Part shown: positions 4,871 to 27,525 of the stretch, one piece after another
Position numbering within the stretch: position 1 is the stretch's first letter
Layout of the letters: each line of letters begins with the position of its first letter
NCBI GenBank assembly: GCA_021813555.1
Contig: JAKAKG010000204.1
Span: 1-34,119, forward strand
Direction: 5' to 3'
Length of the DNA stretch: 34,119 bases
Source: Acidobacteriota bacterium
GTDB taxonomy: Bacteria > Acidobacteriota > UBA4820 > DSQY01
Program-made: the position numbers and the translations under genes
Notes under the pieces: model-generated
The model's database searches: none
The model's input: only the letters and a program-made list of their open reading frames with translations
What the model was told of the DNA's origin: nothing

Positions 4871-4903
4871 GGAAACCTCCTGAAATGAACACGCCCCCCG
4901 CCC

Positions 4904-4987
4904 ATTGCCTATTGCCTATTGCCTATTGCCCATTGCCTATTGCCCATTGCCTATTGCCAATTGCCCATTGCCTTTTCCCCATTGCCC
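4904..4987. repeat. heptanucleotide tandem repeat in the metY leader (12 x 7 bp)
   Basis: Twelve back-to-back 7-base units with plus-strand consensus ATTGCCY. The array runs without an indel for 84 bases. Ten units are ATTGCCT or ATTGCCC, one is ATTGCCA (4953-4959) and one is degenerate (TTTCCCC, 4974-4980). In the metY transcript it reads as RGGCAAU units between the riboswitch terminator and the ribosome binding site. Copy-number slippage would lengthen or shorten the untranslated leader without touching the reading frame. No function is known. Confidence 0.95.
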
Positions 4988-4990
4988 AAA

Positions 4991-13328: not shown

Positions 13329-13452
<124 letters not shown>

Positions 13453-13605: not shown

Positions 13606-13682
<77 letters not shown>

Positions 13683-23185: not shown

Positions 23186-23247
23186 TCGCGCCTCGCTTCA
23201 TCGCGTCCAGCTTAATCGCGTTTCGCGTCTCGCTTAATCGCGTCTCG
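23186..23247. repeat. degenerate TCGCGTCTCGC-type repeat at the methyltransferase 3' end
   Basis: Imperfect copies of CGCGTCTCGC and CGCTTAATCGCG, related to the clean 7-base array at 27435-27525. The repeat supplies the last dozen codons and the stop of the methyltransferase (which ends GRDAIKRDAKRD), so the protein tail is repeat-derived. Confidence 0.6.
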
Positions 23248-23997
23248 CCCCTTACCCTCCGCTCCCGCGAAAAACGGCGTCTCGAACGAGCGCGCCTGAA
23301 GGACCTCGATGAACCGCCCTGCGCGGTCCGTCCTTCTGCATCGCATGAACAAGCTCACGGCGAACGAGGGCAAGCACCGCGCGAGGGGCTTGGCGAAGAT
23401 GGCCGGGAGCGGATAGAAGTTGGATCCGCCCCACTCCTCCACCTCGAAGAAACCTCCCTCCCGAAGGAAGGCCGAGAGCCCGTTTCGTGTGAAGCCCCGC
23501 ACGTGGGGCCCGAGCACGTCCACGGGCGAAGGCTGCATGCCGCAAAGGAGCATGACGCGGCTGTGCAGTGAAGCCAGGTTGGGCACGCCCAGTAGCAACG
23601 CTCCCCCTGGTTTGAGAACGCGGCCCACTTCCGACACGATCCAGTAAATCTCTTTCGTATGCTCCAGGATCTGGTTGGCGATCACCAAATCCATGGCGCC
23701 GTCCTCGTAGGGCAGCGCCTCCCGCTCGATGTTCAAGGAGGTCACGGCCACGCCTCGTTCCCGGGCCGCCAGCACGTTGGGCTCGTAGGTGTCTACTCCG
23801 AAGAGGTGCAGGGTTCGCGGGGCGAGGGCCGCGCGAACATTTTCCAAGTCCGCTCCGCTGCCGAGGCCGAGGTCCAACACTCGCAGAGGCCCGCCGGGAA
23901 GGGAGGACGCATGGCGTCGGGCCATGGCCGCGATCACGTCGCGGCCGTAATTCAGTTCCTCTGTTCCCGCTTTCAATTTGGCCAGAGCGGCGCGCAT
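23212..23997 (-). CDS. class I SAM-dependent methyltransferase
   Basis: A 261-residue protein with a Rossmann-type methyltransferase core. Motif I is VLDLGLGSGAD (40-50). An acidic GVDTYEPN segment for the ribose follows, then MDLVIANQILEH and VGRVLKPGGALLLGVPN. This is the Methyltransf_11/25-like architecture. The C-terminal third is basic with a FYPLPAIFAKPLARCLPSF stretch and could contact a membrane or lipid-linked substrate. The ATG has no strong ribosome binding site. It stands alone, convergent with the M1 gene, with short repeats on both sides. The substrate cannot be told; similar proteins often act in lipid or glycan modification. Confidence 0.8.
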   Translation of the reverse strand: MRAALAKLKAGTEELNYGRDVIAAMARRHASSLPGGPLRVLDLGLGSGADLENVRAALAPRTLHLFGVDTYEPNVLAARERGVAVTSLNIEREALPYEDGAMDLVIANQILEHTKEIYWIVSEVGRVLKPGGALLLGVPNLASLHSRVMLLCGMQPSPVDVLGPHVRGFTRNGLSAFLREGGFFEVEEWGGSNFYPLPAIFAKPLARCLPSFAVSLFMRCRRTDRAGRFIEVLQARSFETPFFAGAEGKGRDAIKRDAKRD

Positions 23998-25961: not shown

Positions 25962-26020
25962 CCCACTACGGTATCACGTGGCGAGAACTGCGGGGGTGGT
26001 GGGAGGAGGTGACGAGTTGA

Positions 26021-26090
26021 GGGCGTGATGAGGTGAGGACGTGATGAGGTGATGCCGAGATGAAGGGATGAAGGGATGAAGAGATGAGGA
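26021..26090. repeat. tandem repeats: 2 x 16 bp then 5 x 8 bp
   Basis: Two 16-base units (GGGCGTGATGAGGTGA, then GGACGTGATGAGGTGA) run into five 8-base units of GATGAAGG type (26051-26090; some degenerate). The array lies between uvrC and the histone-like gene's terminator. No gene was seen in the rest of this 250-base spacer. Confidence 0.8.
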
Positions 26091-26104
26091 AAGGGCTGCG
26101 CCTA

Positions 26105-26136
26105 AAAAATTTGGAGAGGGGTTTGACCCCCTCTCC
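26105..26136 (-). terminator. rho-independent terminator of the histone-like gene
   Basis: Minus strand: GGAGAGGGG (26136-26128), 6-base loop, CCCCTCTCC (26121-26113), then AAATTTTTT. A perfect 9-base-pair stem with a run of six U makes this the best intrinsic terminator in the window. Confidence 0.9.
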
Positions 26137-26176
26137 ATCACAAGCTGAGGACCCTTGTAGGGGCCCCCAAGAGAAG

Positions 26177-26386
26177 TTACTTCGCCGCGGGCTTCTTGGC
26201 GGCCGGCTTCTTCGCGGCCGGCTTCTTAGCCACGGCCTTCTTGGCCGCAGGCTTCTTGGCGGCAGCCTTCGCCGTCTTCTTGGGGGCAGCCTTCTTGGGG
26301 GCAGCCTTCTTCGCCGCAACCTTCTTGGGGGCAGCCTTCTTCGCCGCCGGTTTCTTGGCCGCCGGTTTCTTCGGGGTCTCTGCCAT
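26177..26386 (-). CDS. histone H1-like Lys/Ala/Pro-rich basic protein
   Basis: A 69-residue protein made almost wholly of lysine, alanine and proline in repeats of KKPAAKK, KKAAPKK and KKVAAKK, with no acidic residue after E3. Such tails occur in eukaryotic linker histones and in bacterial H1-like and Lys-rich nucleoid proteins. They are expected to be unstructured and bind DNA or RNA. The ATG has AAGGAGG a few bases upstream. The gene has a near-consensus promoter and a strong terminator, so it looks like a well-expressed single-gene unit. The repetitive codons could change number by slippage. Bacterial PAKK-type tails also occur at the ends of larger proteins; here it is a stand-alone tail. 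Confidence 0.85.
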
Positions 26387-26464
26387 TACATCCTCCTTTG
26401 AGCACCTGCCACTACAACACCTAGACCCGACATCCCATGATGCTCAAGCCATGGTGTTGCACAT

Positions 26465-26493
26465 AATATAGAGGCAAAGTTATCAAGAGTCAA
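26465..26493 (-). promoter_or_regulatory. near-consensus sigma70-type promoter of the histone-like gene
   Basis: Minus strand: TTGACT (-35, 26493-26488), exactly 17 bases, TATATT (-10, 26470-26465). The predicted start near 26458 gives a leader of about 70 bases. This is the best-scoring promoter by eye in the window, set in unusually A/T-rich sequence. Confidence 0.8.
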
Positions 26494-26496
26494 GCG

Positions 26497-26524
26497 GTAG
26501 TGCACAGCAGTTGCCGTGCACTAC
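26497..26524. promoter_or_regulatory. 28-bp inverted repeat just upstream of the -35 box
   Basis: Perfect 9-base arms GTAGTGCAC and GTGCACTAC separated by ten bases, ending three bases upstream of the -35 box. The place and size fit the binding site of a dimeric regulator, for activation or for repression through looping. The cognate regulator is not known. Confidence 0.65.
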
Positions 26525-26706
26525 AAATTGTACCAACAAGAACTTACCGCCCCATCGGACCACTTCCATGGAACGTAGTTCCCATAAGGGTTTCAAAGCG
26601 GCCATCGGGAGCGTGAAACGAACAGCGAACTTGATGATGAGGATGGCGTAGGAGCGATCGAGGCGCAGGCGCGCGGTATGGACGCGATCGATTTTCAGGA
26701 CGGGCT

Positions 26707-27385: not shown

Positions 27386-27434
27386 GGGGACGAGGGACAG
27401 GGGGCAGGAGACAAGAGGTGGCGCTTCGGGCTTC

Positions 27435-27525
27435 GCGTCTTGCGTCTCGCGTCTTGCGTCTCGCGTCTCGCGTTTCGCGTCTCGCGTCTCGCGTCTCGCA
27501 TCCTGTGTCTCGCGTCTCGCATCTT
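27435..27525. repeat. heptanucleotide tandem repeat (13 x 7 bp) at the DhaL/DegV 3' end
   Basis: Thirteen gapless units of GCGTCTC or GCGTCTT, with three degraded units (GCGTTTC, GCATCCT, GTGTCTC) and a final GCATCTT. The last two bases belong to the stop codon of the DhaL/DegV gene. The array fills most of the spacer to plsY. Confidence 0.95.

Follow-up and report, generated by a model that had tools for sequence, protein, structure and literature searches.

Results

A histone H1-tail-like protein encoded between plsY and uvrC

The DNA analyzed here, referred to as the window, is a contig of 34,119 nucleotides from the metagenome-assembled genome (MAG) of an uncultured Acidobacteriota bacterium. 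On its minus strand, plsY (27385-26747) is followed by an ORF of 69 amino acids (Table 1) and then by uvrC (25966-24119). An imperfect tandem repeat with 8- and 16-bp units of the GAGGTGAT type (26003-26089) lies between the terminator of the small gene and uvrC, and further tandem arrays were found immediately beyond the DAK2/DegV gene on its 3' side (TCGCGTC x13, 27433-27524), at 23193-23248 (22-bp unit with TCGCGTCTCGCGTC), and at 4900-4988 (GCCTATT x12). The window also contains 2 tRNA genes on the minus strand (13371-13452 and 13609-13682).

The small ORF had been noticed in a first-pass annotation of the sequence as encoding a histone-like Lys/Ala/Pro protein, and its composition bears this out: 26 lysines, 27 alanines, and 10 prolines make up 91% of the protein, which contains a single glutamate, no aspartate, and no arginine, and has a pI of 11.1. 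With its K/A/P repeats, high pI, and near absence of acidic residues, it belongs to the descriptive group of histone H1-tail-like Lys/Ala/Pro proteins; at the DNA level, the gene contains repeats with units of 15 and 45 bp. Scores against the Pfam family HC2 (PF07382) were 28.7 bits and, in a genome scan, 38.1 bits, both below the cut-off of 40 bits, which is exceeded in 2 relatives, G004 (40.7 bits) and G009 (41.2 bits). Since HC2 also matches 2 of 14 control genomes at E 0.01, weak matches to this family are unspecific. The H1-like families NF038053 and NF038052 of NCBIfam likewise scored below their cut-offs (24.3 and 21.5 bits, against 80 and 135), and a comparison with solved chains gave no match at E 0.01. 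The protein is H1-tail-like and not a member of HC2. It is short, positively charged, and probably disordered, and would be expected to coat or compact DNA.

Table 1. Positions of the features of the H1-tail-like transcription unit in the window.
Feature	Position	Strand	Basis
Lys/Ala/Pro-rich H1-tail-like ORF, 69 aa	26177..26386	minus	ORF call, composition, Pfam HC2 28.7 bits
Shine-Dalgarno sequence AAAGGAGG	26392..26399	minus	AAGGAGG invariant in 10 aligned leaders
-10 hexamer TATATT	26465..26470	minus	Promoter scan; TANNNT at the same place in 10/10 aligned genomes
-35 hexamer TTGACT, N17 spacer	26488..26493	minus	Promoter scan; TTGAC[AT] in 10/10 aligned genomes
Candidate dyad operator GTAGTGCAC-N10-GTGCACTAC	26497..26524	none	Same axis and spacing ahead of the promoters of orthologs, although no dyad is evident in G007
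CAATTT adjoining the candidate operator	26525..26530	minus	Common to some relatives
Candidate everted half-site pair GCAACACCAT and CTTGAGCATC	26439..26460	none	Overlaps the inferred transcription start; weaker, noticed after looking
Predicted 5'-terminal mRNA hairpin	26415..26459	minus	z -3.3 for the window leader; relatives yield no consensus structure
Intrinsic terminator (stem of 10 bp followed by a T run)	26104..26137	minus	Terminator scan

A strongly built transcription unit

The gene had been described as a transcription unit of its own with a near-consensus promoter, a strong Shine-Dalgarno sequence, and the best terminator in the window, and all 3 elements were recovered. The promoter, TTGACT-N17-TATATT, agrees with the sigma-70-type consensus (TTGACA-N17-TATAAT) at 10 of 12 positions and is kept in the 10 aligned genomes; it is the only one of 5 promoter-like sites in the window to exceed 9/12, the score of the other 4. 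In the terminator, a hairpin of 10 pairs (26137-26112), 7 of them G-C, is followed by TTTTTT, and its stem has the most pairs among the 29 terminator-like rows returned by 2 window-wide scans (7 and 22). Because a near-consensus promoter, a Shine-Dalgarno sequence, and a terminator occur together, the gene would be expected to be highly expressed.

The 5' UTR in the window folds well by itself (z -3.3), with a hairpin located just after the start, which is inferred to lie near 26458. Among 8 other leaders, 2 folded worse than their own shuffles and 6 reached z values of -0.2 to -1.4, the consensus fold of 11 leaders contained no pairs, and a search of the whole window against Rfam at gathering thresholds returned only two tRNAs. 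Therefore, a structured mRNA leader or riboswitch was rejected for this gene. The leaders of one of the 2 families sampled below (f2) form a different stem, which ends beside the Shine-Dalgarno sequence.

Orthologous units in the class

The UvrC proteins of the nearest named relatives, all of them Acidobacteria MAGs, are 98%, 76%, 76%, and 70% identical to that of the window. We sampled 13 genomes of the class, which fall into 2 families, f1 and f2. A K/A-rich ORF behind the same type of promoter was identified in 12 of these 13 genomes, the thirteenth, G001, being 67% complete. Ten of the units could be aligned (the window, G003-G007, and G009-G012), with ORFs of 34-88 amino acids behind TTGAC[AT]-N17-TANNNT. 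The unit is also carried by G002, a near-identical genus mate of the window genome, and by G008, in which a K-rich reading frame behind the promoter is cut by the contig end. A terminator (a stem followed by at least 4 T in 8) was found after the stop codon in 9 of 10 genomes examined, G007 being the one without.

In f1, uvrC lies downstream of the unit wherever the contig extends far enough to show it; this leaves out G004, in which uvrC is found at the beginning of another contig. K-rich frames beside uvrC were found at 3 of 80 loci (L006, L007, and L009), which correspond to 3 of the 4 nearest relatives. On the other side, a gene for an OPT-type transporter is divergent from the unit in G005 and in the 4 f2 genomes. 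Unlike in f2 (L095, L100, L101, and L102), the DAK2/DegV and plsY genes of the window are located between the unit and the OPT-type transporter gene. Since the neighbors differ between genomes, the unit is probably transcribed on its own, as a monocistronic message.

Contigs of G008 (L091 and L114) break off within the histone-like gene, which is repetitive, and the uvrC-containing contig of G004 (L088) begins shortly upstream of uvrC. Thus, the histone-like gene and its surroundings tend to be a breakpoint in assemblies.

Of 247 Acidobacteriota genomes sampled across the phylum, 65 gave HC2-type matches at E 1e-4, and 24 of the 247 exceeded the cut-off, counts that refer to six-frame matches, some of which lie inside longer frames. 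Lysine-rich histone-tail proteins are therefore not unusual in Acidobacteriota. Among the papers listed in our literature search, none on such proteins in this phylum was found.

A conserved dyad in front of the promoter

A palindrome is present 3 bases upstream of the -35 hexamer, as the first-pass annotation had reported. It can be read as perfect 9-bp arms around N10 or as 12 of 13 pairs around 2 nucleotides. Perfect 9-bp arms with a loop of up to 14 occur in 13 rows of the window (nested ones counted), compared to 5.1 per shuffle and a maximum of 14 across 60 shuffles. For a 13-bp arm with 1 mismatch, the window has 1 row, and the same shuffles gave 0.37 each and never more than 3. Perfect 9-bp arms alone are thus not rare in the window, and the chance statistics of the palindrome provide modest evidence; its conservation is the stronger argument.

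When 10 promoters were aligned at the -35 hexamer, the alignment was free of gaps from the dyad to the -10 hexamer except for 1 extra base in G011 and G012. Mean pairwise identity among 9 sequences, determined in blocks of 8 bases over the 40 bp before the -35 hexamer, was 0.53, 0.68, 0.41, 0.50, and 0.81; in the same 9 sequences, it was 0.25-0.31 from -112 to -41 and 0.42 in the outermost block (-120 to -113). We then scored 690 overlapping axes of symmetry over 10 sequences (the window, G003, and G005-G012). The axis of the window palindrome (-31 to -4, N10) was the best of all 690, with 60 of 90 pairs (mean 24.5, sd 7.2), and it was still the best with the window left out, with 51 of 81 pairs (mean 22.5, sd 6.5), scores that overstate significance as the sequences share ancestry. 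Within f2 alone, the same axis was best by 1 pair, and within f1 without the window, it shared first place with nested axes that have an identical center.

Dyad pairs at this constant axis and spacing are kept to the extent of 5-9 of 9 in 9 of the 10 sequences: 9 in the window, 7 each in G003, G005, and G008, 6 each in G006 and G011, and 5 each in G009, G010, and G012. In G007, 3 pairs are kept. 

No dyad is evident in G007, whose 3 pairs are reached by 273 of the 690 axes. All 9 pairs are found only in the window among the 10 sequences compared; the palindrome of G002 is identical to it. G008, which was absent from the training of both of our models, was recovered by both (30.7 and 27.5 bits) and carries TTGCGCTG-N10-CAGCACAA before the -35 hexamer. 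Both arms of the window palindrome read TAGTGCAC, whereas the arms are TTGTGCTG-like in most of the f1 relatives, and such a paired change would be expected of a site that is read by a symmetric dimer. The conserved letters of the f1 dyad are GTG...CAC.

Search for further copies of the dyad

The palindrome is single-copy in its own genome. Allowing up to 3 mismatches, with both arms and 3 spacer bases fixed in the search pattern, it was found once each in the window genome and G002, i.e., in 2 of 9 family genomes. A model comprising the dyad and the -35 hexamer scored the 12 promoters of the histone-like gene in the 13 class genomes at 26.7-39.6 bits; the best other place reached 15.8 bits (E 0.03), the scoring having covered up to 150 candidates in each genome. 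A consensus dyad pattern independent of the -35 hexamer, with 1 mismatch, matched 3 places in the 13 genomes, all of them at the histone-like gene (reversed control, 11), and GTGCAC-N10-GTGCAC occurred once each in G000 and G002, as did its reversed control.

With a longer promoter model, many weak places were obtained in the class genomes at E 1, most of which cover the -35 and -10 hexamers only, and a few of which extend across the columns of the dyad. The strongest match of the latter kind (G009 C58, E 0.0019) corresponds to a strong promoter, TTGACA-N17-TATAAT, with a left-half-like TTGTAGTGCTC upstream and no matching right half (L156, 13147-13219). Eight weak places from the searches with these two models were examined, and even the best-scoring placement of each formed no more than 5 of the 9 dyad pairs; 2 of them scored 9.9 and 7.9, above the weakest ortholog, G007 (7.8), and the other operators scored 15.1-25.3. 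In the phylum, where the filters were stricter and 11 candidates were scored per listed genome, the promoter model matched 14 of 396 genomes at E 0.001. Of these, 12 are class members, and in the 2 genomes outside the class, the match is confined to the core promoter (model positions 49-84 in G044 and 49-82 in G071).

A second convincing copy of the dyad was thus not found in the 13 class genomes. The palindrome had been proposed to define an undescribed regulator, with a search for it at other promoters as the check. Its absence from other promoters, one half of the stated refutation, holds as far as our searches reach, and the dyad as the mark of a wider regulon is not supported. The operator looks private to the histone-like gene, while degenerate sites of a tolerant regulator could be missed. 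Control by LexA, an idea raised by the neighboring uvrC, is thought unlikely: a LexA operator is expected at other promoters too, and no second site was found in the class genomes. The idea is further weakened by the lack of a uvrC match in the f2 loci (about 2.5-3.2 kb), where the constant neighbor is the divergent OPT-type transporter gene. To our knowledge, the pattern TNGTGCTG-N10-CARCACNA differs from known operators such as those of the CIRCE, LexA, Rex, and CRP/FNR types. As in the general class of operators located just upstream of the -35 hexamer, it is an inverted repeat at a fixed distance from that hexamer.

A candidate second pair of half-sites at the transcription start

When the 68,166 places of the window were ranked with a matrix built without it, the palindrome came second, with a score of 6.5 (third place, 3.0). 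The top place (8.5) was located on the other strand at 26445-26481, over the -10 hexamer and the start. In a half-site scan from the -35 hexamer to the start codon, the top 2 offsets in f1 were 33 (minus) and 45 (plus); in f2, 44 (plus) ranked first, an unrelated 62 (minus) second, and 32 (minus) third, so that the pairs 33/45 and 32/44 have the same 12-bp step. Mean scores of this everted pair were 5.1 and 3.5 in f1, compared to 9.6 for the operator arms, and 8.7 and 2.3 in f2, compared to 9.7, with the matrix having been trained on the operators. Since the everted pair was recognized post hoc, and is the weaker of the two sites, we regard it as a lead. The start-site region could instead be conserved as mRNA.

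Discussion

We consider it probable that the dyad is the operator of a dimeric, sequence-specific factor that sets the timing or amount of the H1-tail-like protein made from its near-consensus promoter, with repression as the more likely mode. A housekeeping-type promoter would drive a monocistronic gene, and a dimeric transcription factor would bind the palindrome, whose center is separated from the -35 hexamer by about 17.5 bp on the upstream side and lies at about -53 from the inferred start, placing one half-site next to the -35 region. Repression is slightly favored over activation, since the core promoter needs no help and the possible second site overlaps the start; both sites may be occupied. 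The factor would determine when, or how much of, a DNA-coating protein is made. Of the interpretation given in the first-pass annotation, a strongly built unit for a histone-tail-like protein with a dyad, which proved to be conserved, is supported, and a role of the dyad as the mark of a regulon is not supported.

The main rival, which we judge unlikely, holds that the block before the -35 hexamer is an activator site or UP-type element, contacted by alpha-CTD or an activator dimer and needed for high output, without any repression. Its position at about -40 to -66 adjoining the -35 hexamer, the peak of identity right beside that hexamer, and the A/T-richness of the block in f2 members would fit such an element, but the core promoter, with its spacer of 17 bases, is close to consensus as it stands, and the conserved letters in f1 form GTG...CAC dyads, not A/T tracts. 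It is rather improbable that the regulator has many targets and that the private appearance of the site reflects a detection limit, the other sites being too degenerate to detect. Half-sites do vary between genera, so that a tolerant factor is conceivable, the number of candidates scored per genome was limited, and a left-half-like sequence precedes another strong promoter in G009. Against this stand the gap between the orthologous promoters and the next best match to the dyad model and the confinement of the one-mismatch pattern to this gene; moreover, the difference between the arms of the window and those of most f1 relatives would fit a single factor and few sites drifting together.

That the palindrome acts as RNA or as a cruciform, be it as a terminator or stabilizer of plsY or as a REP-like repeat, is very unlikely. 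The window copy can form a hairpin of 12 pairs, and GTAG-tagged REPs likewise begin with GTAG (PMC3733652). However, no T run follows the palindrome on either strand, it is single-copy, in contrast to the many genomic copies of REPs, and the upstream gene is divergent in the 4 f2 genomes and G005, so that its transcript would not cross the site; on these grounds, the plsY terminator and REP readings were rejected. Complete pairing in the window and its genus mate alone also speaks against a function as a hairpin. Finally, a chance palindrome beside an ordinary promoter is extremely improbable: while a shuffled window contains about 5 rows of perfect 9-bp arms with a short loop, a conserved block with a common axis and spacing in other genera and a second family largely refutes this explanation.

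Proteins of related composition are known from other bacteria. The C-terminal domain of AlgP (AlgR3) from Pseudomonas aeruginosa, peptides of which are cited as DNA-binding, shares KPAA-type repeats and a Lys/Ala/Pro composition of the H1-tail kind, but AlgP has a helical N-terminal domain of 124 amino acids and runs to residue 352, unlike the tail-only protein of the window (PMC9239181). Chlamydia Hc2 (HctB) and Bordetella BpH1 resemble it in their lysine/alanine repeats and length variation, whereas Hc2, at 165-237 amino acids and with pentamers of arginine and lysine, differs from a 69-residue protein devoid of arginine (PMC2848022). The same source reports expression of BpH1 during exponential growth and its repression once stationary phase is reached, and because of this precedent, growth-phase control would be a natural guess for the gene studied here. 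Our comparison with the C-terminal tail of eukaryotic histone H1, which extends to composition only, points to a shared Lys/Ala/Pro richness and low complexity; in contrast to histone H1, the window protein is without a globular domain.

The combination of a conserved symmetric site and a strong-looking promoter suggests specific cellular control over how much of this one protein is present. We know of few lysine-rich histone-tail proteins for which control of the amount has been worked out. A gene-private, conserved operator would offer a concrete bait of 28 bp for isolating the regulator, and thereby a way to learn at which times DNA is coated in the cell. Tentatively, and with more doubt than confidence, we further propose that a one-gene regulator and co-evolving operators that bracket the promoter (the dyad at about -66 to -39 and the everted pair at the start) dose a minimal histone-tail protein throughout the class. 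If true, a dedicated regulator with bracketing operators would constitute a private circuit for chromatin compaction in these Acidobacteriota.
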